Assembly (NCBI GenBank): GCA_903813345.2
Contig: CAIIXF020000001.1
Coordinates: forward strand, 7,195,098-7,259,097
DNA from: Owenia fusiformis
Taxonomy: Eukaryota > Annelida > Polychaeta > Sabellida > Oweniidae
Reading direction: 5' to 3'
DNA length: 64,000 bases
Position numbers and translations under genes: made by a program
Shown here: positions 6,092 through 48,100 of the stretch, in pieces
How the letters are laid out: each line of letters starts with the position of its first letter
How positions within the stretch are numbered: position 1 is the first letter of the stretch
Notes under the pieces: model-generated
What the model saw: only the letters and a program-made list of their open reading frames with translations
What the model was told of the DNA's origin: nothing
The model's database searches: none

Positions 6092-9000
6092 ATGACAATG
6101 GCAGTGAATCAGACATTAGGTTCAGAAAGAAGCGTATTTGTAATACAGTTAGCACCTCAGAAAACAGTTAATATCAACACTGGAGAGAAAAGTAAAACAC
6201 AGATTAAAATTGAGCCACATTTCAGGCCAATAGCACCTAAGGATCCAAATACTATAAACGAGGATGATGGAGATGATCCTCCTTTATTAGGAAGTAAGTA
6301 TATGATTAATACAAGTCCAGGTGATCATATGTTACAAAGTTGTGTAAGATATTGTAAGGTTAGCATGGTTAAAAGTGCAGTTTTAGCGATCTTTTCTGAG
6401 CTGACTTCATCACATTTTGTATATCAGACTGACCTACATTACATGGAGATACTGCAGTGTTAAACTCAAGGGTTGTTAGTAATACATTAACAAGTGATGT
6501 TTGTATTGAATTTAAAGCCTTGAAAGCCAATTCGTTGCTATATTTAACATACTGAATTGGTGAATGATTAATTCATATACTTTAATAATGTTAGCTCTAG
6601 CTTTGCTTGTTTATATAGGGAAGTGTGTTCATGGTTTATCAAGTCAACCATGTGTCATAGTCAAAAGTCCACTTGATTTAGTACTTGGAAGGAAATAAGC
6701 TTGTTGTCTAAGAAGTCTACATAGTCTACTGGTCTCTGCTATATATCACCATGTGCCTATTTCACTAATCTGATTCTGTTAAGCTGTCTGTTATTAGTGT
6801 TAATAAAGAGATTAAAATTCAATTCATTAACTACATTTTGAAATATGAGATTGCTGAAACATGTAATAGCTGCCTGTTCTAAGCCGCCTGTTTTGTTAAC
6901 TCTAATTCCAGTGTATAACTAACTGTTTAATATGAGACAGTGTTAACATGTAAGGATGGACTTCCTCATTTAAGTAGAAGGTGCAATATTATCTTTATTT
7001 TCTGTGAAATGTTTATTGTTAATGAATTATATTGCCATCTATATTCAAGATATAGCAATCATCCATGAATTTTTCATGATGAATTGGGAATATCTAAACA
7101 ATTATATTAGAAATTCTCCATTTTGCATGGGCTTTCGAGTCTGTTGATTTTTGGAAACAGTAGAAAATAAAGTCAGGATTTAGCTCATTGATTGAAATTA
7201 TATTTTAAGTAAAATTATATAATGCCAGCTTTGTCACATAATTATCTCCAAAATGTATAAGAGTGTGATATTTCAATTCGCATATGGGTTTATCAGTTAT
7301 GCCTTGGTCACAATTGCTCCGATTTTCACTACAGCGCCTGGCCGATTGAGTAATTAGTTGTTCAAAATTGAATACAATATTGAACAAAACACTCTATCGG
7401 CAGGGTGCCGGCCGTTGGATCGGAGCAAATGTGACCCAGGTATTACTAGTAAATATCATTAATTTGCATTGTGATATCAGATCTTTTATTGTACTAATAA
7501 TGGCATAAACATCAGATCGTGCATCATAGGGCTTGGCTTACCACAAATATGTTAAGGTAAAAGAAAAACAGGATGCAATGATGCATGAATATATTGACTT
7601 TTGCTTCTTGGAACCACCTCTGTGTTATATCATATTGATTTATTGCTAACAATGTATAAGTATTCACTGTGACTCTGTAATGTGTTGAGCATTACCAATT
7701 GATTTTGTCTTGGATGTGCACTCATATAGAACTGATATATTAGTAGCCATTATTAACTGACTTATATAAATAGAATAACTGTCACGGCAACATAATCAAT
7801 TAAATGATGCTTGGTAATATTCATGAAATGTCAGCGCCAGTGACATTTATTTGTTATTGTGATGTCATGCCTAAATGGATCATATCTAGATTCTGTCTAC
7901 ACTGAAAGTTGAATTACGGTGACAGTTTTTGGAAATCAAATTTTTGGTTTAATTGATTTAAAATATTAATAGCCATTTATCGATATTAAGGCTATCAAAG
8001 GTTATAAGAGTGCAATTAAAGTATTGGGTGAAGCATTTTCTTTTAAGTTAAAGCCTGGGTTAAACATATTTGATATCTAAAAGGGCTTATGAGTCAATCA
8101 TTACATTGAGCATCAATCCACTGTTTGTTTCCCGTTGCATTCTCTGTCAAACTTGTATTGGGGAAAGAATGCCTGAGACAAGGGTATAGGCTGTTGGGGA
8201 ACACTTTATGCGAGTTACATCCAAACATTCCATTATATAGCCCAACAATCTATTAGCTCTAACCCTGCCTTATTGTGTTTCCAGGTGGGAAAAATGTCAA
8301 CCAGTATGGCCGACTTTTCACCAATGGACGCCCTCTGCCAGAACATTTACGTGTGGAGATTCTGCAGTTGGCCCTTCAGGGAATCCGCCCTTGTGAAATA
8401 AGCCGCCAGTTGCAGGTCTCTCATGGCTGTGTCAGCAAAATATTGAACAGGTATGAAAATCAATGGGTTAAGAACATCCAGTATTTTATTATATACATGT
8501 ACATATATGTATGATCATCATAGCTCATATATGAACATATACTTTGAGTATTAGAGCTTTAAAGCATACTCCGATGAATGGTTCTTTAACAGATTTATTA
8601 CTGCAGTCATTTTGACAAAAGGAAGTACATATTTACTTCTTTCAGGCTATTCCATGAAAGAAAATTCAAAACCCTATGGATGTTTTTAGTGCTAATGCGC
8701 GTTAATTGAAAACAGGTTACTGTCTTGGTGTAATAATGAAATAAACATTTTATTGTTTTGATGTGTTAATTATAAAGTTATTGTCTGACTTTGTTATTCT
8801 CTTGATATTCTTGGACCCCACCCTGTCGTTATTGTTCACTTTATGTGTTTATCAGGTATCGGCGTACAGGTAGCATTAACCCTGGTCAGATAGGAGGTAG
8901 CAAACCAAAGGTCACCACCCCTGATGTTGTGGCAAGAGTCAATCAATACAAACTGGCTAACCCCCAAATGTTCGCCTGGGAGATTCGGCAGAAGTAAGTC

Positions 9001-12000
9001 TCCCTCAGTCTGTACATCTTTATCTTCTTTATAAAAGTTTTGAAGCTCATATTGAAGCGAAATATTTCCAGCAGTTTTGTTAAAGGCCCTGTCTGAAGTT
9101 GTTTTTTTAAACACTATTGCTCAGCTTTGACATAAATATTTTTATTTATATGTAATGTTTATTTACATATCCTATCACTGCTCCATATTTTGTTAGCAGT
9201 AGAAGAGACTCATGAATCCTTTATTCAAATTGATAATAACGGCCAAACTTCGCCCCTCAAAAGTGGTGAAACCCTAATACCTATAAGTAATCTTGAGAGT
9301 GATTTGTCTCTTCAGGTGCTTTATAAAATCTGACTCAAAGGCAAACACATCTATTTTGATGTATATGTTGAACTAGACTGATGTGAAATTATTTATTTCT
9401 TTGAGAAACATTAGACAAAACCTTTAAGAATTATTCAATGTGCAAAAGGAAGTTAATAATTTGATGACTGGATATGTGATAATGATACAGGTGCGTATAT
9501 AGGGATCTGAGGCACCTACATATGTATACCCAATGACATCATTGGTGTTGTTCTCCACGACATTGCATAAAATAATGTTCAACCACCTTTTCATGTTTTC
9601 GTTGTTGTTAGCTCACATGGTGAGCTTTTGCAATCACTCACTTGTTTTTATATGTAATGTTATTTGTGCAAAGAACTAATCCACTTAAAGTGGCAGCAAA
9701 GAATAGAGGGAGTAGAATTTTTTCTAAAAGCGTGGCAATGCTACCTTTACAATCTTAATTATGTTATTATCTGGAGAAAAGAAATGAGATACCTGATCAA
9801 AATTGAAGATTAGGCAAATATATGGAAAAGGAGGCTAATTACAAATAACCCAAAATATCAAGAAATAAAGTCTAAACTGCTAGCCTGTTTAGAGACAATG
9901 TGATAATTCTCCAGCTCCTCTCTAGTCTTTGTTACCCCTTTAAGTGCTCTGGTTCACAGGGCTGGTAAAGTCTCTTAAATAGAGATAACCCAGTTCTGTA
10001 CATGGCCCAATAGTTTGATTTTGCCGTGTTTGTTATGTGTCTTGCATTGGAGTGAATATTTTTGTTGATGTGAATTTAATGGCTTGATTTAATGTTTTGT
10101 GCTTTATTCTTAACCCTAGGCTTGTAGAGGATGGCTTTTGCATGGTAGATAACATCCCCAGCATAAGCAGCATCAACCGCATCCTCCGAGGTCCTTTACG
10201 ATCGATGAAAGTAAGCGATATAGACACAGGCACCTGCACCCAACACATGTACCATACTAAACCCATTTAAACAATGTCTGAACTGATGTTGGAACAACTC
10301 AGTTCAAATTGCTAACAAATAATCATATCAACTTGTGAGGGATGTTTTCCAATGTTTAATGTTATGTTATAGTTATAAAAGGACTGATTAGTGTTAAATG
10401 TTGTTTTCCATACATGTACTGTTCTTTCAGTTACATGGAAGTTATTGATGTACATGTACATTACAAGAAGTTATTTTGAGAATGTTAAACCAGCTCCTTG
10501 TGCGATGTGCCTCTAAGAAATTATGTCCAGAAATACACCTGAAAACATTCTCATGTTAATTTCTCCCAGAATTAAAACCAATGGTCTGGCCCTAAATTTT
10601 ATTTCAATATCAAAATGTGGTGATATTTATTTTGGAAAACACCCCTTTTCATATAGTTTCTAGTTGCAGAGTGCATAAAGGTGGCAAGCTAGGGGAACTA
10701 ACAGATTCACTTTGTACAATAGTCTTAGTAAATCCATAGACTATCACCAGTATATGTAGCTAACCTGTACAGTGTATAATAATAACAGGTCATCCAGTCT
10801 TCAAACCATATTGCACATGTCATTGACATTATACAAAAAGAGAAGTATTGTATTATGTAAAGTGATTGAAAATTTATTTTTTCTCACATTTTACTTAATC
10901 ATTGATTCCAAATTATGAATCTCTTTGATGTTGTGCTATTGTTATCCAAACAGTGAATGATCAACGATGTTGTTACATGTAGTTCACATTTAATTCTACT
11001 AAGTTTATAGACCTTAACCAATTTTTAACCAACAGGCAAAGATCTAACCAACAGGCAAAGATCTAACCAACAGGCAAAGATCTAACCAATAGGCAAAGAT
11101 CTAACCAACAGGCAAACCCCAAAAGATGCTTTTCACTGCATACCACTAGTGCTAACCACCATTAGATGTATACTAAAAAAATATAGCGATAGATGTCTAA
11201 CCATGCATATCTATTGTTTAGGTTGTTGGATGATGGCATTTGTAACGAACGTAGTATTCCAAGCATTAGTTCTATCAACCGTATCATTAGAGACAAGACT
11301 ATCATGGCTAGAAGGGGCCTATATGCAACAGAAGAGGTTTGTTAACTTCAAAATTCACTAAAGATTTCACAGAGAGTTGGAAAATAGCATCTTTATGTAT
11401 GGTGCCCTCTTTAATTGGACTTCAATTCATTTTATGCTTAGAACTGCGCTGCCATCTATATAATAAAGATAATACATTTACTTTTATACAGTGGAGATCA
11501 TTGTTTTGTAACTTCCCCTTATGTCTATTATAATTTATGTTCTAGTGTCAAAGAAGCAAAGGCTTGATAAGCCAGAATTGTCAATCACTTTCAAATGTTT
11601 AACTGCTAATAAGTAAAAATTTTTGTGAAAGATTAGGCTATTCTTGAAAATCAATTTATTTAAAGAAGAAATATTTGTTCGAGATAGCATTTTAATTACT
11701 CAACACCGATTACCAGTTTAATGGAAGTGGCCCAATGGTCAATAACCCAGATGCGAGTAGAAATAATCTTGATTTACGTCATTAAAAATTAAAAATTCAG
11801 TCAAAGTAATATCATATTTGAAATCTACATGTAAAACTACATCTAGAAATGTGGTTTTAAAAAGTGTTTATCAACTTTGAAAAATTAATTTTCTTTGAAA
11901 ATGTGACTTCTAGCTCGGGGAGATTCCCCATAGACCCCATGCTATAAAATCACAAAAAATGAAATATCTTTTCTTTTAGTGGACAGATAATATTTTGCTT

Positions 12001-13919
12001 TACTGGACATATTTTCATTAGTATAAGTATCAGACACATGAGGGTTATATGAAAATTGAGCCACTTAAATTGATAATATTCAAGTTTAAGGGAACTTTCT
12101 TATATACCTGCCATGTTAATTGACCCGAATCAGCCACCTGGTGGTGAAACTGGTAACTACTTACTCGCATTTGGGTAATTGAGAAATCATATTTAGGAAG
12201 TGAAAAATTTGTAAACATGAATCAGTTTGTTCATTCATCACTATTCAGGTAAATTTTATGAGTTGGGGGATAAAACAAAATGAAATGTCTACAACTGTTG
12301 ATATTTTGACACCATCCCTAATGGAGGTACTGTTTTGCTTGTTTCAGATGTTTGATGATCAAATCATTGAGAATGCTGCAATGAGTGCATCAATTATGGT
12401 CAAGACTGAGCTGGAAGATTACCAGAGTGACCAGAGCTTTGACAATGAGTCCTATACATCTGCTGAAGCTGACACCTCCACCAACGAGCACATGTCCATG
12501 ACAGGCTTTATTAAGGTTGAACCTGAGGAGCAATCAAGCCAGGAAGCTAAAGGAGTTGAGAGGCCAGAGATCACACAGACGACTAGTAGGAGGTCACGCA
12601 AGAGTACACCGTATAAGATCTCCCTTGCAGAGAATAATGATGACGTGGCTAGTCCAAGTAAAGGAGCAACAGTTAATGGGGTTTCTCCAACTACACCCAG
12701 CCTTGTTTCTCCCAGTGTAAAAGCCAGTAGTATTGCACCTACAGTAAATGGTACTGACACCCCACGTACAAGTCAAGCAAGCCCACCATATAAATCACTG
12801 GCCATCTCCACAGGCTCACCTACACCTCCAACGCAAGCAACCTTAAGCAGTGCATCTGCCTTGGCTGCCCAGATCAAAGCTGCCTCAGCGTCAAACATCG
12901 ATCTCTCCAACACTCCTATGCAGCAGAAACAGATTCTGTTGCTCAATGGCCAGCAGTATGAAATTGTTCCCTTAGGCAACGGGATCTGGATCTCAAGGAA
13001 TGAGTACATGTTGCTGCGGGAGCTACACACGGTCCAACAACAGATTGCTAACACATCCAACAAGGTGCAGAAGTTAGACAACGCCAAATCTAAATCAGCT
13101 CAAAATGATTCCAAACATAGTGAACAATTCACAAAGCTCAAAGAAAAGCCCATATTGCCACTAACTACTACAGAGCAGGCAAATAGGGCCAATAGTGTAG
13201 AACAATTGAACCATCAAACTGTAACACAAAAACTTGCTAACAAACTGGCTGAGAAACTAGGCAGCCAGACCAACATTGCCAAGGCCACTGCTGACGAAAC
13301 AAACTCAGACACAGACAACTCAAACAAACGTAAAGCAGAAAACGACTCAACTGATGATGATGAACACAATGATAAACGTCAGAAAATCGCCAGTGAAAAT
13401 GAGACTATAAAGGATGAAACTGATGATGATGAAGAAAGTAATCTTGTGATAGCCGACCTTGCTGCTGAAAGTTCCCCTGCTGATTCCCCTCGGCTTATGA
13501 AGGCACTGCAGGGGGCTGCCACATACGAAGGTCTGAAGGCTTCCGATGCAAAATCTGAGCAAAGCCCAAAACAAGAAAATGATGTGGAAATGGAGAACAA
13601 CGAAAACAATAATGATAAAACAGACACAACAATTGCAGTACCAGGAAAAGGTTAGTCTTAACTGATTTATGTAATGAGACTTCTGCAATGCATTTGATAA
13701 TAGATGTATCGATAAATTTAAATGAACCTTCCAAACAAGGGTTAAAACGGCATTATGAAAGGTTACCAATATAAAATATTAAATTGTTAGCAATTTTGAC
13801 TAAAAATGTTTTTCATTTAGGATGTTTGGAATGGTTGTTGAGTTGTTTGGCACTTTCGGACTTTGTTCTAATATTCTGGATTTTGTTTACTTGCAGATTC
13901 TAGCGATGCTTCATCCTAG
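6092..13919 (+). CDS. Pax: Divergent Pax (paired-box) transcription factor with alternative paired-domain exons
   Basis: Coding exons 6092-6293, 8285-8450, 8856-8993, then either 10120-10210 (4a) or 11222-11336 (4b), 12348-13650 and 13897-13919 all have GT-AG borders and matching phases (1, 2, 2, 0, 1). They give 640 codons with 4a or 648 with 4b. An in-frame TGA at 6080 supports the ATG at 6092. Residues about 69-196 form a paired domain: [52 protein letters not shown] and FAWEIRQK are visible. QYGRLFT in place of the usual QLGGVFV makes it divergent. No octapeptide and no homeodomain follow. The C-terminal half is Ser/Thr/acid-rich, with a conserved-looking block near residue 391, a bipartite nuclear signal near 526, and psi-K-x-E SUMO motifs (IKIE, VKTE, IKVE, IKDE). 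It is presumably a nuclear DNA-binding regulator. It may belong to the lophotrochozoan Pax-beta group, but I cannot test that. Confidence 0.9.
7302..7440. mobile_element. Short palindromic MITE in Pax intron 1
   Basis: Imperfect terminal inverted repeats of about 22 bp, CCTTGGTCACAATTGCTCCG and CGGAGCAAATGTGACCCAGG, bound 139 bp with a GC-rich arm near 7400-7420. There is no coding capacity and no clear target duplication. Confidence 0.6.
8285..8993 (+). CDS. Pax: Pax exons 2 and 3: PAI subdomain and first part of RED
   Basis: Exon 2 (8285-8450) follows TTTCCAG and completes a Ser codon begun at 6293. It encodes the beta-hairpin and helices 1-3 of the PAI subdomain and ends inside an Arg codon. 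Exon 3 (8856-8993) completes that codon and encodes [18 protein letters not shown], the linker and RED helix 4 up to FAWEIRQ, ending as AA| in phase 2. Canonical paired domains have YETGSI where this has RRTGSI. The turn and linker residues IGGSKPK are intact, so minor-groove contacts should be kept. Confidence 0.92.
10120..10210 (+). CDS. Pax: Pax alternative exon 4a: C-terminal RED helices, version a
   Basis: This 91-bp exon sits between AACCCTAG and GTAAGC. It enters in phase 2 (AA|G = Lys) and leaves in phase 0. It encodes [20 protein letters not shown] followed by [10 protein letters not shown], covering RED helices 5 and 6 plus a short basic tail. It is paralogous to 11222-11336, with which it shares the recognition-helix residues [10 protein letters not shown]. 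Confidence 0.9.
11026..11116 (+). repeat. 19-bp tandem array with branch-point-like motifs
   Basis: There are 4.8 copies of TAACCAACAGGCAAAGATC at period 19, between alternative exons 4a and 4b and ending 105 bp before the 4b acceptor. Each junction makes TCTAAC, close to the metazoan branch-point consensus. A single TCTAAC also lies about 22 nt before the 4b AG, near 11196. Confidence 0.9.
11222..11336 (+). CDS. Pax: Pax alternative exon 4b: C-terminal RED helices, version b
   Basis: This 115-bp exon follows TTGTTTAG and ends at GTTTGT. It enters in phase 2 and leaves in phase 0, exactly like exon 4a. It encodes [20 protein letters not shown] then [18 protein letters not shown], a better match to canonical Pax (IIR at the end of helix 6) than 4a, with an eight-residue longer tail. 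Joining 4a to 4b gives a TGA at the fourth codon. Skipping both shifts the frame and hits TGA thirteen codons later. So the frame allows exactly one of the two exons. Confidence 0.85.
11695..12190. repeat. Interspersed repeat in the last long Pax intron
   Basis: The stretch has imperfect inverted ends (AACCCAGATGCGAGTA near 11745 against TACTCGCATTTGGGT near 12160). Its 11745-11840 part matches the reverse complement of 45725-45835, so at least two dispersed copies exist. No coding sequence is seen in it. Confidence 0.55.
12348..13650 (+). CDS. Pax: Pax exon 5: long C-terminal regulatory region
   Basis: The acceptor TTTCAG at 12347 and phase 0 entry fit either alternative exon 4. The 434 codons begin [12 protein letters not shown] and are rich in Ser, Thr, Pro and acids. 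Three features stand out. First, SUMO-type motifs: VKTE, IKVEPEE (followed by acids) and IKDE. Second, a hydrophobic block [20 protein letters not shown] plus [11 protein letters not shown] with a Gln-rich tail near 12925-13050; its order within a disordered region suggests a conserved interaction motif I do not recognise. Third, a bipartite nuclear signal, KRKAEND to DKRQK, near 13327. No homeodomain is present. The tail exon 13897-13919 adds DSSDASS and a stop. Confidence 0.88.
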
Positions 13920-21807: not shown

Positions 21808-24800
21808 CTGGAACAAAACAATCTGAGAGATGATACACAATACAAGAAATGGAATGAAGTCTGCCATATACAGTACATTATACAACGGACATTGTTATAA
21901 CATAGAAACCATAATATACTGTATGCATTTATTACAATGTCCTGTGTCAAGCCCTTGAGACCCCTCTTCATACAGAGTGAGCCAAAAATGTAACCTAAAC
22001 AAATGTAAATAACTCAGTCACCCAGCATGGGTTTGAAATCATATTTGACAATTGAACCTTGTTCAAGTTTCATTGATTTATTCCCAGTAGTTAGGTCCAA
22101 GCTGGATGACTGAGTTATTCACATTTGTTTGGGTTAACTTTTTTGGATCACTCTGTACCTCACCAATATAGCAAAACCATGCAATTGTTGTAAAGAATTT
22201 GATAATTTTCATCGTAATATCTGATGTGATATCGCATATACATATAATATATTATATATATTGAAAGGGTACATAGTTTTCTTTGTATAAGCATTTGAGT
22301 AAGCATTTTCAAAATGATATCTCAGCAATGCAATCATTAGCCATTTTAGCAACTCTCTTACAACTTTATTCTTCCCTTGAAATTTCTGCCACCCATTTGC
22401 AAACCAGAAACGTAACTATTCAAGATTCGTTTTGCTCTTTATACTGGTATGTTTTTCATGTTAATCTGTTACTCCACAGTAAGTGGAAACCAGTCACTTT
22501 ATACTTGAATCACTCCTGATGGTTATGGTAGCTGTTAGTGAATCAGCAATTCAATAAATTGATGGTACATCTGATTGACTGATTGACTGATTTCACTATT
22601 TTAAATGTGGGGTTAAACTAATTCTAAAATACTATTTAGAACCTATTGTGGGCGCCATTTTTGATTTTTAAAAGTTCTTGTAAGATTTTAAGATGGCCAT
22701 CACAACAGCCCTAGCTAATATCTAACATGGTGAGTACCGAGTACAGGAGAAAATACATAAAATCAAACATAAGTTTGTATGAACACTTCAAATTTTCTGG
22801 AATCTGTTGAAAAATCATAAAACACATCATAGTCATATACATGTAAATTCTTTCTCTTGATATATATGTTTACTATGTAGGAAATAATTTTCTCCTATAC
22901 TGATAAAGATGTTTTATTTGGGCCGCCATTTTGAAAGAAGGTAGGTCAATATAACATTTTCATTCAATAATTTGAACCATCACAGCTCCAATATTGTATT
23001 AAAAATAGCAATTAGCGTGTTTAAGATATAGCAGCATTAAAACAATTGGACTAAGCTTCCCTTCAAGAATATTTTCATTATAAAGGTAAAATCTATTACA
23101 GAGTGGTGATTAAATTGCAAGCAATGAATTAACCAATGTGATCTTAAAAATATTTAAACATGATCAACATTATCTTATACAACAGAAAAGTTACTAAAGA
23201 TTTCATGATTCAAAATTAATGTCAAAACTCAAAATATTAATATGGTGCACCAAAATAGATACATGAAAACAATATGTTAAAATAAAATTAAACCAAGAAC
23301 TAGCCTTGCCCAAGTCGGTCTCTTTTACTTATCTTGTTTCTATTATGACCGCCGGTAATAATTCAAGATCAGATAAGTAAAAAATACCGACTTGGGCAAG
23401 GCTAACCAAGAACCAGCAGTTATAATAACACAAATCAAACTTTATCAACAGCACACAAGCACATTTTACAAACACTGCAAAATGCAAACTATTGTAGAAA
23501 AATAAACAAATGGGATGCCCAGGAAACATGCATTCAGCCTTATCCATGCACGCATTGAACCAATGACTGCTATCTAAAATGGGCTACAGGTATGTAGTAA
23601 ACACATGCTTTGGTATTTTCGATGTTATTAAATAGGTTTATCAATTTTCCTTTTTGTGCAAGATTTCAGTCATCCCAGAGCCAAGTTTCCTGGGTTTGGC
23701 TAGACTCGCCTCAATGCCCTTGAATGGACAATTAGTGACGAATCAGCCAGGAAGAAAAACACGACGAGGCAAAAAATATTTCCAAACCTTGCAACGCTTG
23801 CCTGGCAATAGAACACAATGATAACCCTTACATAATGAGATTGTTCACAATTGAATCAAAAATTGACGATTTAAGATTAAACATCTATAAAAGTAGTTAC
23901 AATTAATTTACAACTCATCATTGCAGAGGAATATTTCCCGAAGGTTTTTAAAAAAGCGACATGGCAAGCGCCTTGTCTTCCTCATCCTGGCTACTCTCAA
24001 CACAATTGCCAGGTTACTTTAAAATTCATGGTAAAACACCCCTTGGCCCAGCAGCTGTATTACAAAAATTGAGGATTAATCTTATATAACATGGATTAAC
24101 TAAATACAGGTATAATGAGATACAGTAAGGGTTGGGAGGCTAAAGTAGTGTTGTAATAGAAAAGTACATGTTTATTGTCTAACCACAATGAGAGTATAGT
24201 GATCACATAATGATCAAAAGCAAAGATAGGCTACGGTTCACATAACTGCATTTTGAATTTGAGCCTTTCTGGTTATCAAATGTAAAAGAAAGTAAGCCAT
24301 ATGAAGTTGTATGAAGAATGTACAGTAAACCCTATCTGAGTGGAACACATTTGGTACCTCTAAAAAAATTGGAGGTGTTCCACTTTTAGAGGTTCATTCA
24401 ACATTAAATGAGTTTGTCTTGGGTCTTGAGACTCTGAGGAGTGTTCCATTACAGAGGTGTAATACTTCTAGAGGTGTTCCACTCTATAGGTTTCACTGTA
24501 ATTGCAAAACCAGATGGCAGAGAGGTGCAACTTACAGGGTCTGCAAATTCAGACATAGGGGAGCTTCCTACAGGGATAACTTCATAGTCGCTTGGTGTAT
24601 CTACCATGTCAGCACCACTCTAACAATCACAGCAAATCAATACACTGTATACCCAAGTAATAGACCAATTGCACTATTTTCTGATAATCACATGGGTCTT
24701 AAAGTACTTTATACTCTTATTTACTATATGGCTTTTTAAGGATTTTAAACTAGTTGTGCACAGAAATTTTCAAGGTCTCAAAGTGTGGGGGTACAGTGGG

Positions 24801-30800: not shown

Positions 30801-33800
30801 GGTAATGTCTCTGCACTAATTGTTGAATCTTTAAATCAGTTTTCTGATTCCTATTAGGATTGCTATACATGTACTAGGATATAATTAAGAGCAAGAATTG
30901 ATCATTGAAACAATGTTTACCTATGAATGACTTCATCTTTGTTGATATGTTCTTTCTGTAAAGCCTTTAATGCTCCAGCAAACTCTGCAGTTATAGTCTT
31001 CCTGATCCAATCTTCTCTACTCAACTCTTCAGGACTCAACTCTACAAATACAACAATATAAACATATACATCGATCCTCTTGGTCTAGCTTCCATCCCTT
31101 TTACCCTGCCCCCTCTCCACACACCTGACCTCCTCTACTTAAAGAGATGAAATAAGTAATGGGGAGGTCCAGAAACTCTATAAAAAACTCCACTAAAAAC
31201 CTCTCTTCTGTCATTTTCATATGTGACAATCAGAGATTGGTATGGTAATACATGTAATTTTTTTAAATTGTCTGAATTTTACAATCAAAACGCCTGGTAT
31301 AGAAAAACTCAAAAATTTTTTTTTTAAGTTACCAGACTTCCAGTCCAGTATATTATAGAAGATAGATGGTGCTGATTATGTAATGTCGAAGTAAATTTTC
31401 TATCTTTAATACCCCCATTTGATTAGATATTATAGATCATTTTCTCTGCTATATTTGTGATGGGGCAGGGAACTAATTATCTGGCAAACAGAAAAAAGCA
31501 CTTCTGTTATTTTTCACCTGACATGTAGCAGCAGCTACATGTACTGACCTTACAATTCATCCATGCGTGCAATATATACTGCATGTTAATATTTCATTGT
31601 ATTTTCAGACTCTGTTTATTTTGGCAAGAACTCTAAATGAATCTATGGAAATAATGTGACCCTGATCTTAATGAAATGGCAAACATCCAGAATCAGATTG
31701 AATGTTATTAAACATCGCCAGATTGTCTTATTATTCCCTAATTACTGATAAATGTGTTCTTGCATAATAGACATAACAAACCAATAAGTTCATCAAAGGT
31801 GAACAAAATATCAATACTTATTAATTAAAGTCCTCTTTGAGTATTCAACAGCATGTTAAATGGCAAATTGGGAAGGAGAAAGGTAACAGTGTTAAAAAAG
31901 CCAATAGTATTAGGAAGAATAAAGGATCTTGATTTTCAGTTTTGAAGCAACTCGGCAGACTTTGAGCCAATAGAATTATGGTACAGTGAAATCAGGGTTA
32001 TTGTAACATACGTACATTCTCAGAAAAAGTAAGTCACTTTGAATGTATCATACCATGGGATGAAAACCAATGATCATACATGTACTAACAATGGCATTTA
32101 CTCACAAAATCTTACTCAATTTATTCACAGTGTGGAGTTAGAACTTTCTCAAAAAATTCTTTAAGATTTGCACTACAAATCTAAGACGGCAGACTCTCGT
32201 TAACTTCAACAAGTTAAACTCAATATACAGATATAAAGGAATTCTGGGGGATACAAATGACAAAATATTGAAAAAAAGCCAATAGTATTAGGAAGAATAA
32301 AGTAAAGGATCTTTATTTTCAGTTTTGAGGTTTCGAGGCAACTCGGCAGACTCTGAGCCAATATAATTACGGTAAAGTGAAATCAGGGTTATTGTAACAT
32401 ACGTACATACTCAGAAAAAGTAAGTCACTTTGAATGTATCATACAATGGGATGAAAACCAATGATCATACATGTACTAACAATGGCATTTACTCACAAAA
32501 TCTTACTCAATTTATTCACAGTGTGGAGTTAGAGCTTTCTCAAAAAATCTTTAAGATTTGCACTACAAATCTAAGACGGCAGACTCTCGTTTACTTCAAC
32601 AAGTTAAACTCAATATACCGATATTAAAGGAATTCTGGGAGATACAAGTGACAAAATATTGCTTTTGGGATGAGTTCAAACAACTTTGACATATTCTTTA
32701 CCCTACCTACTTTGCAATTTAACAATCAACGCAAGTATACATACCACCATATCTAAGCAGATATAGGACAAATTCTAAAAAATATTTTCCGATTGATAAA
32801 ATCATGGGCTTTCAATTAGAGCTCATGATAAAATCATTGATTATAAAACCAGAAGTGTGTGCTCAAAAAAAATTTGAGCCAAAAAAAGCCTTAAGGCCCC
32901 CAAAAGTTGGCCTTTTTGGTCATAAATGGGCCTTCTAAGGCCTTGTTTTTTAATTTTAGGCCAAATTTTGAAGAAAATGGGCCTCAAAATTTCAAAATTT
33001 GGGCCCACTTTTTGGTTTTAGGGGCCCAAAATTTTTTTTTTCTCAGACCAGAAGTTTGGCCCCCCCCCCTTGTTGGTTCCCAGATCCGCCCCTGAGATAT
33101 GTCAAATAAGACACTAGATTTACTTGCCAATGGTAATTGAAACCCCATGCTTATTCTTGGGTCAAAGTAGTTCAACAAGTTAAACCTAGTCTGGGCCTTA
33201 TTTCTTATCTGACATATCTTGTGGCCCACCCTAGGTTTAACGTCCGTGCCTATTCGGCTCTTGATGCAAAAAAATTAATGGTGGTCTATGGCAGCGCATA
33301 GAATTACATGCGCGTTTAATTATAGAATTTACAGAGGAACTAGTCCTACATAAACTCAAAAAGCTCAAAGCCTGCAAATCCCCCGGCCCCGATAATATTC
33401 CTGCAAGATTTCTACTGGAATGTTCACAAGAATTAGCCCTCCCTCTCAGTTTGCTTTTTACCAAATCTCTAGATTCAGGAACATTACCACCAATCTGAAA
33501 AGATGGCGAGATAACGCCCATCCACAAAAAGGGTAAAAGAACAGCTCCCAGCAACTACCGTCCAATATCGCTAACTTGTATCCTGTGTAAGACCATGGAA
33601 TCCATAATTAGGGACGCAATGGTAAACCACATGGTGACGCTGGGCTTATTAACAGATGCCCAACACGGGTTTGTACCCGGGCGATCATGTAGCACCCAGC
33701 TGCTTACGGTACTTGAGGATTGGACAAGTCTACTCGATTCTGGCAACCCAATAGACGTAATCTATTTTGACTTTTCCCGGGCGTTTGACAGCGTACCGCA

Positions 33801-35333
33801 CTGCAGACTACTTGAAAAACTGAACAGCTACGGCTTCAAGGGAAATCTTCTAAAGTGGCTGACTGCATTCCTGACAAACGATCTTCCCGAGAAAGTTAAA
33901 ACCACATTGAAAATTTTCGCCGATGATACAAAGTTGTACAGTGCTATACCCAGACAAGACGACATCACAAAACTACAAGAAGATATTAACGAACTTGTCA
34001 ACTGGTTGGATAAATGGCTCCTCAAATTCGACTCCAGCAAATGTAAAGTTCTCCATCTGGGGAACAATAACAGCAACCACAAATATACACTAGACAACCA
34101 ACCACTGGAAGAAGTCACCAAAGAACGTGACCTTGGTGTGACCATCGACCAGGATTTAAAGTTCCATGACCATGTCTCCAACTGTGTAAATAAAGCAAAT
34201 AAGATTTTGGGTGCAATTAAAAGAACATTCTCCAACAAAGATGCAGATATTTTCCTCCCCCTATACACGACTCTAGTCCGCCCCCACCTGGAATACTGCA
34301 CGGTTGCCTGGAATCCCAGATATCAATCGGACATTAACAAGATTGAGAAAATACAGAGGCGAGCCACCAAACTCATCACCGGCATGACTGACCTGTCTTA
34401 TGAAGAACAACTGAAGCAGCTACATCTATTTCCCATGACATATAGGAGGAAAAGAGGAGACTTAATTCAAGTATATAAAATCATGAATGACATAGACAAG
34501 ATAAAGCCATCCAATTTCTTTACCCCAAGTCATACCAACACAAGAGGCCACAGCCAGAAATTCTACAAATCCAGATGTAACCTTGCCCTGAGAAAAGGAT
34601 TCTTCAGTCAACGTACAGTAGGCGACTGGAACAACCTCCCAGAGAACATAGTTACAGCCCTAACATTAGACGATTTCAAAGCAAAGGTCGACGCCTACTA
34701 CTACCCAGACATGTAAGATCACAGGGAACCTAGGATGATCAGTTCACATTACACTAGTATTTTTGCCCATGTTCAAAATAATTTTAGTGCAACTGTCACA
34801 TTGAATTACACACACTACCGTCTTTGGGAAAAAAAATACCAAAGAAATTGAAAACTGCCCCATAAGAATCCATGTAAATAATAAAACCAGAAGGGAGGAC
34901 AACACAGGACTAACCTTACCCTCCTAAACATGCTGATGATGATAAGCGATAGTGAGGATTTGCAACAAATGAAAGCATAGCACGGAAGTTAAACCCAATC
35001 ACGGCAACAAGAACATTCAGATTAATAAATGAAAGCCGTGGTATTGGGTTTAACTTGTTGAACTAGGGTCAAAGGTGTCAACAGCATTGAAATTAATCTC
35101 AGCAGAACAATATAACAACAAAAATAAGTGATAATGTCTGAGTTTGAAATGGAAATACTACTAAATACATGTAGGTCAGGAAAAGAGAGAACAGGAAATC
35201 AGTGACAACACAATTGAACATTCAAAAATTCAGGATTTCAGTGCAGTTTTAAAGATATTTCAAAGAATATAAATGTAAGATATTACGTTTCACAGTTGCC
35301 CAGTTACTCACCTGATCTTCCGAATATATTCAT
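19117..35333 (-). CDS. PLEKHM1: PLEKHM1-family RUN and Rubicon-homology domain protein
   Basis: Sixteen exons on the minus strand splice in consistent phase: 35333-35312, 31041-30921, 30377-30299, 30064-30014, 29581-29486, 29150-29071, 28718-28519, 27000-26026, 25736-25609, 24619-24536, 21807-21705, 21512-21390, 20853-20741, 20244-20113, 19895-19725 and 19281-19117. They total 2643 bp, 880 residues plus TAA. The N-terminal RUN domain (about residues 8-205) and the C-terminal Rubicon-homology zinc domain (about 613-870) match vertebrate PLEKHM1 in order and motif. In vertebrates PLEKHM1 is a Rab7 effector joining late endosomes and autophagosomes to HOPS at lysosomes. Vertebrate PLEKHM1 also has two PH domains and about 1050 residues; I see none here, and exons 10 and 11 join in phase across the place where they would lie. 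DYEVI in exon 10 fits an LC3-interacting motif. Confidence 0.9.
20271..20505. mobile_element. MITE family B (CAGTAAAACC ends), copy 1
   Basis: ACAGTAAAACCTG on the left and GATTTTACTG on the right, with GGAACACCT / AGGTGTTCC inside each arm. Three more copies lie at 24322-24499, 25223-25411 and 29227-29385, all in introns of the same gene. Such ends resemble pogo/Tigger-like (Tc1-mariner) non-autonomous elements. Confidence 0.65.
20884..21002. mobile_element. MITE family A, copy 1
   Basis: Ends AAATGTCACCACTTGCCATT and GGTGGTGACATAAAAAC are inverted over about 12 bp. The inner right part (ACAATAACAATATATC) is shared with copies at 56497-57787 and 62273-62379. It lies in a PLEKHM1 intron next to exon 13. 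Confidence 0.75.
21971..22157. mobile_element. 187-bp palindromic MITE with TA borders
   Basis: TACAGAGTGAGCCAAAAA and its inverted partner ending TCACTCTGTA bound the element. The inner arms AACAAATGTAAATAACTCAG and CTGAGTTATTCACATTTGTT also pair, so almost all of it folds into a hairpin. TA at both borders suits Tc1/mariner-type insertion. Confidence 0.7.
22158..24321. other. PLEKHM1 intron 10, no exon seen
   Basis: AT-rich intron sequence. It holds a MITE at 23301-23404 and several CCATTTT / AAAATGGC motifs (22660, 22690, 22922). I looked here for PH-domain exons on the minus strand and saw none. Confidence 0.55.
23301..23404. mobile_element. TA-flanked MITE family C, copy 1
   Basis: TA, then GCCTTGCCCAAGTCGGT, 66 bp of palindromic core, ACCGACTTGGGCAAGGC, then TA. 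Perfect 17-bp ends and TA borders point to a Tc1/mariner-type MITE. A second copy at 27067-27163 lies in the opposite orientation. Confidence 0.85.
24322..24499. mobile_element. MITE family B, copy 2
   Basis: Ends ACAGTAAACCCT and AGGTTTCACTGT are inverted, with GTGTTCCACT motifs in each arm. It sits 36 bp below exon 10 of the PLEKHM1-type gene. Confidence 0.6.
25223..25411. mobile_element. MITE family B, copy 3
   Basis: ACAGTAAAACCTTTCTAATC and CAGGTTTTACTGT are the inverted ends; AGAGGTGTTCGGAT repeats inside the right arm. The copy is intronic. Confidence 0.65.
26026..27000 (-). CDS. PLEKHM1: PLEKHM1 exon 8: low-complexity linker
   Basis: A single 325-codon exon that enters in phase 1 after TTATTCAG and leaves in phase 1. 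It is disordered-looking: a proline patch (CSPPPAPVIEIP), an Arg/Ser basic patch (RSTKPRSRSGSGRHG) and, at about residues 370-405, a charged helical segment (EKYEARMKKREEDAAIEEFL) likely to form a short coiled coil. It replaces the region where vertebrate PLEKHM1 carries its linker and first PH domain. No PH signature is visible. Confidence 0.88.
27067..27163. mobile_element. TA-flanked MITE family C, copy 2
   Basis: It has the same 17-bp ends as 23301-23404 and TA borders, with the core inverted relative to copy 1. It lies in intron 7 of the PLEKHM1-type gene, 67 bp upstream of exon 8. Confidence 0.85.
27855..28453. mobile_element. TTAA-flanked foldback element (piggyBac-like ends)
   Basis: TTAA, AGGGGTATTCCTTGCCAG at the left and CTGGCAAGGAATGTTCCT, TTAA at the right bound 599 bp. 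The arms pair over about 200 bp (for example GGTCAATATTGATC, GCTGCCATCTTTT, AGGAAGTGA). The TTAA borders match piggyBac target preference. No transposase is present. Confidence 0.7.
28519..35333 (-). CDS. PLEKHM1: PLEKHM1 exons 1-7: RUN domain
   Basis: Exon 1 encodes only MNIFGRS and a split codon and is separated by a 4.3-kb intron. The next exons encode the RUN helices, with recognisable blocks ALKALQKEHINKDEV, CSALEAVFLHGLKS, DFWNFLCKFTHKDVIS, CRAWVRMALNDYLMESYLDA, YFYKRTSYLRDEEQPEILKS and ending NIWTPTPLILCGLLESQ. The basic CRAWVRMALND helix is the most conserved part of the RUN fold in this family. All donors are GTAAG, GTGAG or GTATG types. RUN domains bind small GTPases; in PLEKHM proteins this end contacts Arl8 and HOPS. 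Confidence 0.9.
29227..29385. mobile_element. MITE family B, copy 4 (degenerate)
   Basis: AAGTAAAACCAGTATTATG and the right end TAAAATGTTTTACT with GTGTTCCACT motifs. It is less well preserved than the other three copies. Confidence 0.5.
31894..32660. repeat. Tandem duplication of a ~380-bp segment
   Basis: 31894-32270 and 32272-32660 are head-to-tail copies differing by scattered substitutions and short insertions (for example an extra AAGTA in the second). They lie in the long first intron of the PLEKHM1-type gene. There is no coding content. Confidence 0.85.
32860..33097. mobile_element. Transposon end fragment rich in GGCC motifs
   Basis: A stretch of GGCCT/AGGCC and AAAATTTTG motifs with local palindromes, ending in a C run and GGTTCCCAGATCCGCCCCTG. 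Read inverted, the last part is CAGGGGCGGATC, a terminus common to invertebrate DNA transposons. Only one end is recognisable. Confidence 0.4.
33270..34716 (+). pseudogene. CR1/jockey-like LINE reverse transcriptase, truncated and broken
   Basis: A 5'-truncated non-LTR retrotransposon in PLEKHM1 intron 1. In order: CKSPGPDNIPARFL, an in-frame TGA at 33496-33498 within LPPI*KDGEITPIHKKGK, NYRPISLTCIL, QHGFVPGRSCSTQLL, FDFSRAFDSVPH (motif A), FADDTKLYSA (motif C), then a thumb and C-terminal region ending DAYYYPDM. Between LKWLTAFLTN and DLPEKVK the usual GVPQGSVLGP block (motif B) and the segment before it are missing in frame. The copy therefore could not make active enzyme. An imperfect 19-bp inverted repeat, TAGTTCAACAAGTTAAACC, flanks it near 33169 and 35047. 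Confidence 0.88.
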
Positions 35334-36125: not shown

Positions 36126-39100
36126 ATGGGAAACAAACATGATAAGCCTGGACTCCCAACCATTGAACAAGCCACAGAACCCAATGTTGATATAAACAAA
36201 GGTTCTCAACCTATAAATGGAAGGAACAGTAATGAGGCACATGACAATCATGGAACAGTTGCAACAATACAGGGTGAGCTGAAAGAAACGCAGGGAGATA
36301 ACACTGAAGGTTGGGTTACAATATCATTGGCAACTCAAGATGCCTTGGTATTCAACCCACAGACCAGCTATACATTATGTGCAGGTGAGATAGCAGTATT
36401 AATGTATATACTAGGTTCAACAGTTGAATGGCATGAACCTCAAAAACTGATTCTTGTAGATATTAAGTGTAATCCCTTTAGTCTGTAAAAAGATGGACTT
36501 TAACTAGCATCCTCGAATCACCGGGCTTCGAAATCCAGAATACTTCTACCCCCTGCGATAAGCAGTTAGCATTTCCCCGATTAAGAACTCACAATTTGAT
36601 TCGCTGTCGCAACTTTGCGACAGCAATCATGTATACTTCATCTGCACATAATTAGATCACATGATTCAGTTAAATACTGGGCGCTTCCAAATTGGTTATA
36701 GCAGGCAGAAAGAAGGAGGTACGGATTCTGAACACCTGCTTAGGAGGATGTTAACTAGAGAATAGTCTGGTATTGCAACCAAGTGTGACTTTGTACTATT
36801 ACTATATTTATTCCAAAATTTCTAGTATGCAGTTTTGATTAAAGTCTGTCTCATTTTGTTTTACTAGGTGTAGGCAGACAGTTGAAGATGGACACAGGCC
36901 ATCTAGGCGTAGCGGCAGACAATGATGCTAACCTCATACACTCTGTGTTACACCAGAAATTTGACATTCCAGAGGTAACTGCAATAATGTTAAATTCCTG
37001 TAGTACATGCTTGTCCCTCATACCAATGTGTATTAGACAGACATTTTGGTCGGAAGTATGTGAATTAAGGAGTAATGTTAAGGTCTAGGTGTGATTTTGT
37101 TACTGTTATGTATTTGTCCCTACACTGATGGTATAATGTGCTATTTTCAGAAAAATTCCACGTTACTCTCGAGTGAAAAAGAAAAACAAGCTACATTAGA
37201 AAATATACAATGTGAATTACGAGCCAAGTCACAGCTTGTGGGGAAAGATGGTATTTTGGTTTTCCAGTTCTCCGGGCACTGTTACAAGCTGCAAACAGGG
37301 GAGGTGCTATTAGCCCCAGCAGATTGCATGCGCACTAGGAGTACAACTCTTACTATTCAGGACATTATTAACTGCATACAGGGCACTATTGCATCCTACT
37401 TTGTGATGATCGTTGATTGTTGCTATGCCGAACTTGTTGCCGAACAATTTATCCTAAAATGGGAAACATTAGTCCCAACATATATCCTTGCATCTTGCAG
37501 CTCGAAACAGAAATCATTATCTTTCAAAGATTTGAAGAATGGATTTTTTACTTATTTTCTTGTGAAATATTTTGAGGATTATAAAGAAAGGACATTCCCA
37601 ACTCTGACAGCTGTTGATTATTGTAAACCTCTCTGTGCAGCCATGAGTACACTTGTCAGGTATGTACAAAATATGTCCATGTGGTCCATTCTTTTCAGCA
37701 AGTTCTGATTGTTTCTTAAGGTAGATCTGCATGGTCACAATATTTAGTTATTATTCATGCTATTGGTTTTAATTATTTCCCACATTTTGTATGTACATGT
37801 AGATATTTACATGTTGCATGGTAGAGTATTGAACACATTATGTTTTGTTAAAATGTTGAAATGACATTTCCTCAATTGTGAATGTGCATCGTGCAGAACT
37901 ACCTCAGTCATATGAAAAAGATTTTCTTACAGTTGTACTTGTAAATGTGTCTGTTGTCTAAGTCTCTACATAAATGATAGAGAATTTATTATAGCACTAG
38001 TTCTAGTTTTTAAAAACATATTAAATACACAAGCTTTATTTCCTTATATTCATCTTGAATTTTCTCTTGTCAATTTCTCCTCGGGTCTATCATAACAGAT
38101 ACACTTGTCATGCATTATTTTAGCACCACTGCGGATGATAATGTGGAGTGAGTATGTCATACCATATAGCATTCAATACTTCTCCCTTTGGCATAAGCAA
38201 TAAGCATGCATACATGCAAGGAGGGTATATTGCAGTTTTATTGCTGAGCACTGATATTTGCATATGAAGTCTCCTTTAATTTTCCCAGGTTGTGGTATGA
38301 GAGTAGTGAATTTCTGAGATGGGGTGTTTAAATAAACTAATTATGTTCAAAAATGCATGCATTGAATTTTGCACATTAAATGGAATTACTAATTTGGATT
38401 TCTTGAGGCTAACTGCATATTTCCGACATTCATGGAGTGGGTTATAAATTAGTTCTTTACAGGGTGGGAACATTTTTTAAAATAACGCTACCTTTCAGCA
38501 TTATGTAATCCTAAATAATCATGCTTTGTAGTAGCGTTTTTGGGCCAACCTTGTAATATTACAATGCTTTAAGACCTTGGGGAAAATATTAAGGCTTTAT
38601 ATAGGTTACACATAATCCCTTTATTTTACTTTTTATTACCTTGCACCAAAACTGCTCTTCATAAATCTACATAATGGTAATAGTTCTACTCAGAATTGAA
38701 ATATAAAATCATAGGTTTTAAGCCAGTTCTGAACTGAGGCAGTTTGCATGTTACGTATATGTAGTTTCATATTTTTTATGAACATTCTTTCTATCACCTG
38801 AAGAATATGGATAATATGGCGGTCTCATTGGTGTGAAGATATTAGGACAAACTCAAATATTTTGATATTGTGATTTGTATATACAGCCCAGGGTATGGTG
38901 CAGATGCAGAGATGTCCCCCAAAGCTGTATTCTGTAACATACAGGTGCTAGAGGAGAGGGTGCTGGTTCATACTGGTGCAGTAGATGACATTGACTTCAC
39001 ACAGCAAACTGTAAGTGGAAAACACAATGGTTCTATACAGTTGTTACATGTTCTTATAGCTTTGCATTATAAGACCCATTACCAAATCTCCCTTCTTTCT

Positions 39101-45100: not shown

Positions 45101-48100
45101 ATACCAATCTGTCAAATTTTAATATGTTCCCATACCAACCAAAATGACGCCCAAAGGCCATACCAAATGTCCAAATATAGAACCAATGCCATACCAAATG
45201 TCCAAATATAGGACCAATGCCATACCAAATGCCCAATTATGGGACCAATACCATACCAAATGTCAAAATGTAGGACCAATGCCATACCAAATGTCCAAAT
45301 ATGGGACCAATGCCATACCTTAATTCAAAGTATATGAAATATAGGATCAATGTCATACAAATTTGGAACTACTGGACCAATGCCATACCACGAATGTTAG
45401 GTAACGTATCTACAATGACCATTCTCATACCAGAAGAGCAAAAGTCCGACCATTGCCATACCTCAGAAGTCAGAAATTTCCGGGCATTCCCATACCAAAT
45501 CCTAAAATATGGTTCCATTGCCATACCAAACGTTGAAAAAGGTACCCCACATGCGCCGAGGATCCCCGTCAAGGTTTATATATAGTGAACCCCCCGGGCC
45601 TATAACACTAAGTATAGGATAAATAACTTTTACTGACAAATTGTATATGTACATGATTACATTAGTCACAACTACTCACTAAAAGGTTAACTTATTGCAT
45701 GAAGAAATGTAATTCTACATGAAGATTTCAAATATGATATCACTTATTTGACTGAATTCAAATATGATATCACTTATTTGACTGAATTTTGAATTTTTAA
45801 TGAAATAAAGCAAGATTATTTCTACTTGCATCTAAGTCTATTTCATTGTATAAGTCAACAATTAATAAGGCAAATACATATCACTGGCTTCCCTGATTCA
45901 TTTAGTTTCCTTGCACTTTTGAAATCATCAATAATTCATATAGGGTTGAACTGTCGAATAATGAAAACGTTGCAAATGATGTGATAGAAGTTTTTATACT
46001 ATTTAGCTTGGAAATATTGCTGATATAGTTTTAATGTGATTTTAGGAGATTAAATGTTCTACTGAGGAACTTTGATTATGTTCAATTTTCTATGATCTTT
46101 AACTTTCTGAAAAGGGTCGGGCTAAATTCTCATTGAGACGATGTTAAAAATCTTAAAGTTGACTTCCTAAATGTTGAATTCTTTTGATTGTCATGAATTT
46201 AAGGTTCACACAAAATCTAAAGATCATCTCGTTTCAAACACAATCTGAATCTCATTAAGTTTGATGTGAAAGCAGTTTTACTTTAATCCAAAATAACAAA
46301 TATGGTAAATCAATATGTGTCTATGGTAGATGCTAGCGTGTAGTCCAACCAGCACAAGTGCTGCCATCTACCTATCCATTCATCAGTTTAGCACCTAATA
46401 AGGTCAGTACTCATGGTAAAGCTTTTGTACCTCGTCTATGCTAAAAATAAATCAAACAGAAATGTTAACTTGACACGATTGGTAATGCCCACCTTGAAGG
46501 GTGTAGTGTAGGGATAAAGGGAAGGGTCAGGATAACACTTATATAAAATATTTAAAGTGTCTAATAATGATAATGAACATATTACAATGTTACACAACAT
46601 AAGTAGATGCTAATTAAATGTCAATTGTTGTTAGTATAATATGTATTTTTCATTTAAGGCTGCAACAAGTACACACGTACCAAAAAGTGCCACGCCCACT
46701 TTTCCCTAAAAGCAGCTGTGTGTGACTATATTTGATAAATATTATTGATTTATAGGATCATTATGAACACTTTTCAGTGTTTTAATGTTAAAATATACAT
46801 ATTGATACCATTTTTGACAAAGTAGCAGCCATAAAATCCAAACAGATTTGCAAATATTTCACTTTGAGATCAAAAGGACACATTTGGGAGGGGTCAAATT
46901 GAGAATATTTCAAGATATAAATACTGTTTCTATGGTAACCATATCAGTTAGAGATTGGAAATTTCTGGCACTTACTAACCATAACATGCCCTACCCAATA
47001 TAAAACAATGAATATCTGACATGCATTAGTATTCTTTTTATTGGGTGGTATTAAAGTACCCCCATGGTTGTTTTGGGGTAGGGGTATAAATTGGTCTGAG
47101 GGCCGTCTGCCACCCCTATAGAAAGTCCAACTACCCAGAAAGTGTCTAGTATCATCATACAGATGGTTTGAAATAGGTTGGAATGTGTAACCTTTCATGT
47201 AAGGAAGGAGTTACAATTATCAGAGTGGGCCGTAGTCTATAAGCTATTTCAAACAATCATGAATTCAGGCATTTTTCCTGATCAGTGGACTTTAGCAATT
47301 ATTTATGCATTGTTTAAAAAGGGAGATATAAATGTTTCAAATAACTACAGGGGTATATCACTCTTAGACACCATGGGAAAGATATTCACAAAAATAACTA
47401 GCAATAGGTACATCACTCATATGAAAGAACGGGGACAGTGGTTTGAACAACAAGGAGGTTACAAAGAAAAATATGCAACAGCAGATAATATTTTTGTTTT
47501 ACAATCATTAATTCAAAAGTATGTATCAAAGAAGAAAGGACGTTTATACTGTCTATTTGTTGATTTTTCGAAAGCGTATGATTGTATCCAGCACGATATT
47601 TTATGGTATGTTTTAATAAAAAATGGGTTTCATGGAAAAAGTCTGAAAGTTCTCAGACACATGTACAGTCAATTACAATCATGTGTTATGACAGAAAATT
47701 TTGATCTGACTGAAAATTTTGATTGTTCTATTGGCTGTCGGCAGGGCTGTATGCTCAGTCCGACAGCATTTGTCATATTTCTAAATGAATATATAAAAAT
47801 GTGTCAAAACTTAGAAGGCATTTTTGTAGATGAGAGTTTGCCAAATATTTCTGTAATGCTCTATGCAGATGACCTTGTTCATGTAGCTGACACTGTACCT
47901 AGGTTACAGAGACAATTAAATTGTCTATCAAGGTTTTGTAAACAGTATGGAATGAAAGTAAATATGTCGAAAACAAAAATAATGGTATTTAGAAGAGGAG
48001 GTTACCTTAAAGAAACTGAAAAATGGTATTTTAACAATGAAAGAGTAGAAACAATCAATGGTTACAAATATTTAGGTATCATGTTTACACCAAAGTTAAA

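Follow-up and report, generated by a model that had tools for sequence, protein, structure and literature searches.

Two candidate mutually exclusive exons completing the paired domain of a Pax gene in Owenia fusiformis

A Pax gene of the annelid Owenia fusiformis probably contains two mutually exclusive, tandemly duplicated exons, 4a and 4b, between which the reading frame would enforce a choice, a reading to which we assign a probability of about 0.72. The gene lies in a 64,000-nucleotide stretch of the genome (hereafter the window; contig C1, positions 7195098-7259097), and genome-wide searches covered the 498-Mb assembly of 525 contigs. Pax proteins are textbook regulators of how eyes, brain and muscle develop, and their paired domain is treated as nearly fixed. 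In the mechanism that we propose, exon 4 of a Pax-alpha/beta-type gene would have been duplicated in tandem long ago; either copy alone would complete the RED half of the paired domain and join exon 5 in frame, and use of both or neither would lead to an early stop. Both protein forms would be made, with a putative splicing regulator picking between 4a and 4b, the latter being the exon with the weaker splice sites. Wrong products would be removed by nonsense-mediated decay or give truncated protein.

Gene layout and reading frame

The gene occupies positions 6092-13919 of the window on the + strand as seven exons, all of them predictions, and its coding frame runs uninterrupted from start to stop. 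Its features are the following.

6092-6293, + strand: exon 1 (predicted), start codon and 67 codons, leaving in phase 1; open reading frame with a GTAAGT donor
8285-8450, + strand: exon 2, PAI half of the paired domain; Pfam PAX match in the own-genome search and gene model
8856-8993, + strand: exon 3, encoding the linker and the start of the RED half as far as FAWEIRQ, leaving in phase 2; profile match and GTAAGT donor
10120-10210, + strand: exon 4a, 91 nt, 30 residues, phase 2 in and phase 0 out; tail GPLRSMK
11222-11336, + strand: exon 4b, 115 nt, 38 residues, phase 2 in and phase 0 out; 15-residue tail with ARR
11343-11345, + strand: in-frame TAA, reached when the 4b donor is unused; AATAAA at 11462
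12348-13650, + strand: exon 5, encoding the long C-terminal region, part of which resembles mollusc Pax-beta motif 3
13897-13919, + strand: exon 6 (predicted), final codons and stop

The borders of exons 3, 4a, 4b and 5 are all AG/GT. An initial annotation of this DNA had described 4a and 4b as entering and leaving in equal phases, which holds in the gene model; the two lengths are both 1 modulo 3. It had further claimed that joint use of the two exons leads to a TGA at the fourth codon of 4b, and use of neither to a TGA 13 codons into exon 5; both stops are found in the gene model, at codons 203 and 181, respectively, the latter being the thirteenth codon counted from the junction codon. The exactly-one-of-two arrangement and its frame logic are supported as well, with 4a alone giving a form of 640 amino acids that is open to the stop and 4b alone an open form of 648. 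The lock bars productive joint use of 4a and 4b, not their joint splicing. Coordinates and counts likewise stood, except for the start of exon 5, which begins at 12348, one base past the end previously assigned to the arrangement. With exon 1 and the greater part of exon 5 left out, the forms carrying 4a and 4b score 198.3 and 198.1 bits against the Pfam PAX profile, and the whole 640-residue 4a form reaches 195.1 bits.

The stops that follow double inclusion and double skipping would also suit an exon pair acting mainly as an off switch, regulated to lower the protein level or to give a form without a complete RED half. We consider this unlikely, because a single cassette exon would suffice for such a role and two copies conserved at the amino-acid level would be left unexplained. 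The splice sites of 4b bear on a second alternative. Against the consensus, the 4a donor scores 7 of 9 and the 4b donor (GAG/GTTTGT) 6 of 9, the lowest of the six scored, and the acceptor tract of 4b has the fewest pyrimidines of six scored (10 of 16). Were this weakest donor ignored, Val-Cys would be added and the TAA immediately past it would end translation, making 4b an alternative last exon and yielding a short Pax protein whose paired domain is complete but which lacks the C-terminal region. The nearby AATAAA agrees with such an end, but AATAAA/ATTAAA signals are common here (3 found versus 2.5 expected in the stretch) and the GT donor of 4b falls exactly at phase 0, matching exon 5, which makes this reading improbable compared with mutually exclusive use of the two exons.

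Exons 4a and 4b are separated by 1011 nt, and the intron between them holds a 19-base tandem repeat of about five copies (11026-11120). The longest exact intron pairings that could loop out 4a or 4b measure 10, 11 and 11 nt, and pairings at least as long arose in 89, 54 and 49 of 100 shuffles; a repeat finder also lists imperfect inverted pairs spanning 4b, for example 10859-10874 paired with 11576-11591. Within 300 nt of 4a or 4b there was no Rbfox site. In 300-nt flanks, TCTT occurs four times upstream of 4a (1.7 expected), a CELF-type pattern occurs once upstream of 4a and once downstream of 4b (0.27 expected), and YCAY counts are 1, 4, 6 and 6 (5.3 expected). These counts are too weak for a regulator to be named from them. 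Downstream of the gene, the window contains a caspase-like open frame (37082-37708, E 2e-5) and two retroelement reverse-transcriptase frames (33499-34716 and 47172-49067).

Homology and divergence of exons 4a and 4b

We used a RED profile that leaves out 4a and 4b and combines six RED sequences taken from the other Pax genes in the same genome; in its three Pax2/5/8 rows and its Pax6 row, 5 to 8 residues belonging to the next exon are assumed ones. Searched against 3543 six-frame open reading frame pieces of the window, each of 12 or more residues, this profile retrieved exon 3 (E 7.8e-22), 4b (6.4e-10) and 4a (1.1e-7), and the best match outside the Pax gene had an E value of 0.55. The window yielded no third copy of exon 4, the further profile matches there having E values of 0.55 and worse. 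Whole-genome searches gave weaker values, as expected because the pieces comprise only 24 to 30 residues: E 0.0536 for 4a and 0.165 for 4b with Pfam PAX, and 0.0023 and 0.0041 with a composed RED consensus, for which the first non-Pax match stood at 0.0485. The 4b peptide had eight matches in the genome, consisting of itself (2.2e-18), other Pax exons (4.4e-7 to 0.0042) and 4a (0.0187).

The divergence between the two exons was assessed over 23 codons (69 bases), beginning at the first Leu and ending at the final Arg of the helix. Across this span, 15 of 23 residues and 44 of 69 bases are identical; synonymous sites are saturated, with 12 of 14.2 differing (pS 0.85), and 13 of 54.8 other sites differ (pN 0.24). 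When the 25 base differences were placed at random, at least 15 identical residues without a stop were obtained in 0.015% of 20,000 trials. We also simulated a dead copy, holding one copy under strict conservation and leaving the other neutral since the duplication. The resulting P was 0.06 to 0.08 at 0.3 mutations per site, 0.025 at 0.35, 0.0060 and 0.0057 at 0.4, 0.002 to 0.003 at 0.45, and 0.0003 to 0.0012 at 0.5. Simulated base identity matched the observed 44 at 0.4 mutations per site (44.4 and 44.3 of 69), and at 0.3 the model leaves 49 to 50 identical bases, more than observed. Among runs at 0.4 with at most 44 identical bases, the fit was 0 of 3114 with 4b dead and 2 of 3230 with 4a dead. 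A copy dead ever since the duplication fits these data poorly, though one copy may have died recently.

Profile search, pS/pN and simulation support the earlier view that 4b is neither a chance match nor an obvious wreck. The weaker splice sites of 4b, or equally the less canonical paired-domain end encoded by 4a, could mark one of the copies as a silent or dying relic, but silent sites are saturated while residues are conserved in both, neither exon contains a stop, and both retain AG/GT borders, so that we regard a relic as very unlikely. Strict conservation of both copies would predict 23 of 23 equal residues rather than 15, and the copies have therefore also diverged, in a manner that was tolerated or favoured. 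Identity between 4a and human PAX6 is again 15 of 23, the same as between 4a and 4b, and identity counts alone therefore do not prove tandem duplication. In a column occupied by Val in all 10 other Pax ends compared, both 4a and 4b carry Ile, as expected for copies that arose within this gene.

Predicted protein forms and subfamily of the gene

Each exon was previously taken to encode helices 5 and 6 of the RED half. The turn, helix 6 and the tail are indeed encoded, but only the end of helix 5 is, because exon 3 already encodes the residues up to FAWEIRQ; the helix limits within the RED half of this gene are assumed ones. The 10-residue recognition-helix block is identical in 4a and 4b. Differences between them are found in the turn that joins the second RED helix to the third (MVDN or NERS), in the few residues preceding this turn, in one Leu/Ile within the helix, and in the tails. 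We take PAX6 numbering to be the PDB chain numbering plus 3, an assumed offset that places the relevant Asn at 114 and Arg at 128. In the alignment to PAX6, the exchanged MVDN/NERS block covers Asn114, and the arginine aligned with Arg128 is kept in both forms; a change of PAX6 Arg128 to Cys is reported to be linked to foveal hypoplasia. The initial annotation had spoken of two DNA-binding ends. Turn and tail do differ, but the description is only partly right and too strong, because the swap spares the recognition helix, and the Arg128 equivalent is the same in both forms.

Nine columns are invariant among the other Pax ends reaching them (10, 9 or 6 ends), and both exons keep eight of these, with Ile instead of Val in the ninth. 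Since the 10-residue block is identical and eight of nine invariant columns are retained, both forms probably retain the reading of bases by the RED recognition helix. With the base-reading helix kept, the swap is likely to affect the seating of the RED half on DNA, or partner contacts made through the new tail, rather than to create a wholly new target motif. The gene would offer a natural experiment on the role of the RED half, with two predicted proteins differing only in the turn and tail of one helix-turn-helix.

The gene most likely belongs to the Pax-alpha/beta group, judging from its predicted protein. No homeobox was present among the six Pfam families matched by the full 4a form at E 0.1, two of which are 'homeodomain-like' helix-turn-helix families matching within the paired domain, and one simple pattern search of the protein returned no octapeptide. 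Residues 391-421, in exon 5, agree with 13 of 29 positions of the longest mollusc Pax-beta motif (motif 3, PMC5333810), a resemblance rather than a full match; none of 3000 shuffles scored as well, the best reaching 12. Of the PLDLS motif of mollusc Pax-beta only IDLS is present, and mollusc Pax-beta motif 1 was not seen in the protein by eye. A genome search with the first 270 residues of exon 5 found no second copy, its one match being itself. In the available text of the mollusc and annelid reports (PMC5333810, PMC5356317), Pax-beta proteins, like the one described here, have a paired domain, no homeobox match, no octapeptide pattern, and a long variable C-terminal region, in which the present protein has a resembling motif; leeches are described there as having two Pax-beta genes, in contrast to the alternative RED exons predicted here.

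Other Pax genes of the genome and known systems

The Pfam PAX search of the genome returned 12 matches at E 0.001 and 17 at E 10. Beyond the gene in the window, the matches include the five genes listed below, and the remainder consist of a broken piece close to the Pax3/7-like gene together with four weak matches. The subfamily names are provisional and follow subfamily hallmarks.

C1:46861413: Pax3/7-like gene, Pfam PAX match
C6:319046: Pax6-like gene, Pfam PAX match
C8:22722156: Pax1/9-like gene, Pfam PAX match
C5:8631480: PoxN-like gene, Pfam PAX profile positions 1-85 only
C248, a 25,000-base contig: Pax2/5/8-like gene, Pfam PAX match
C248:23559-23756, 23797-23994 and 24033-24230: tandem RED exons of the Pax2/5/8-like gene, 198 bases each, each with its own AG and GT

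The three tandem exons of the Pax2/5/8-like gene each cover most of the RED half including its helices, the encoded stretch running from R(F/Y)YETGS to SSIN, and are separated by gaps of 40 and 38 bases. Amino-acid identities among them are 70, 82 and 77%, with pS 0.69-0.82 and pN 0.13-0.22, values by which they appear to be old copies with conserved residues. As a proxy for intron length drawn from one gene family, we considered the gaps between profile matches to the myosin head: the genome holds 85 such matches, forming 65 neighbouring pairs within 20 kb on one strand, and the shortest gaps are 94, 98, 114 and 131 bases. Among 25 stricter myosin junctions the minimum is again 94, and three RPB1-family loci have no gap under 360 bases between the matches listed. 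Because introns of 38 and 40 bases are shorter than the shortest myosin gap, adjacent RED copies probably cannot be spliced together, and use of one would preclude use of its neighbour. A transcript joining copies 1 and 3 is conceivable in principle, and since the junctions are all in frame, the choice in this gene is not imposed by the frame. The exon expected to follow the RED copies was not found on their contig, which ends 770 bases past the third copy. Among the myosin matches, one head exon (PF00063 positions about 27-81) is present in twelve tandem copies on the minus strand (C9:37986009-37994334), presumably a large alternative-exon set.

In the Pax3/7-like gene, the only sign of RED duplication found is a broken partial piece (C1:46862686-46862793), about 0.9 kb upstream of the intact exon and similar to it by eye. 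The Pax1/9-like and Pax6-like genes showed one RED copy each within the 3.4 kb and 8 kb scanned, respectively. The rest of the PoxN-like RED half was found neither in the next 10 kb (C5:8631400-8641399) nor in two whole-genome searches.

The three-copy arrangement strengthens the case for mutually exclusive exons in the window gene and may be more striking than the 4a/4b pair, and it would extend the natural experiment to most of the RED half, helices included. With three RED versions in another of its Pax genes, this animal may tune its Pax proteins by choosing between exons. It is an evenly balanced prospect that Pax genes of this species generally swap the RED half by choosing among exons, acting through two ends under a frame lock in one gene and through three RED exons with introns too short for joint splicing in the other. 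If so, of the five Pax genes with a RED half found, one would make two paired domains and another three, which would be an alternative to the duplication of Pax genes in vertebrates; were both arrangements expressed, splicing and gene duplication would be two routes to the same diversity.

Mutually exclusive exons of the alpha-tropomyosin type have too little room between them to be joined, the mechanism that we propose for the Pax2/5/8-like RED exons. Unlike that type, 4a and 4b lie far apart and would be locked by the reading frame, a feature shared with the FGFR2 IIIb/IIIc pair. Within the Pax family, Pax8 and Pax3/7 have splice insertions in the paired domain. The available text of PMC4488758 describes Pax6(5a) and the fish Pax2 variants 2a+ and ext24+ as splicing variants inside the paired domain, where the reported events are insertions, donor shifts and exon skipping, and it names a non-canonical exon 3a of mouse Pax5. 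The Pax6(5a), Pax2, Pax8 and Pax3/7 variants resemble the window gene in that splicing alternatives are placed within the paired domain, but as far as the available sources describe them none exchanges homologous RED-half exons. An oyster Pax6 with a RED-half insertion and a mussel Pax2/5/8 with six isoforms are described in PMC5333810, and the available parts of that report and of PMC5356317 mention no alternative RED exons. The initial annotation knew of no described swap of this part of Pax, in agreement with our literature search: among the open-access titles and abstract beginnings covered, with subscription papers largely outside that scope, none showed a homologous-exon exchange in the Pax paired domain.

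Outside Pax, the primary work on exons 18 and 18b of FOXP1 is reportedly that of Gabut et al. 2011. According to the available text of PMC11701043, these exons are exchanged in a mutually exclusive manner inside the DNA-binding domain, with a changed DNA motif. There the exchange concerns a forkhead with an altered motif, whereas here it is predicted for a paired domain whose recognition helix is unchanged; in kind, FOXP1 as described in that text is the closest precedent, part of a transcription factor's DNA-binding domain being exchanged with the frame kept.
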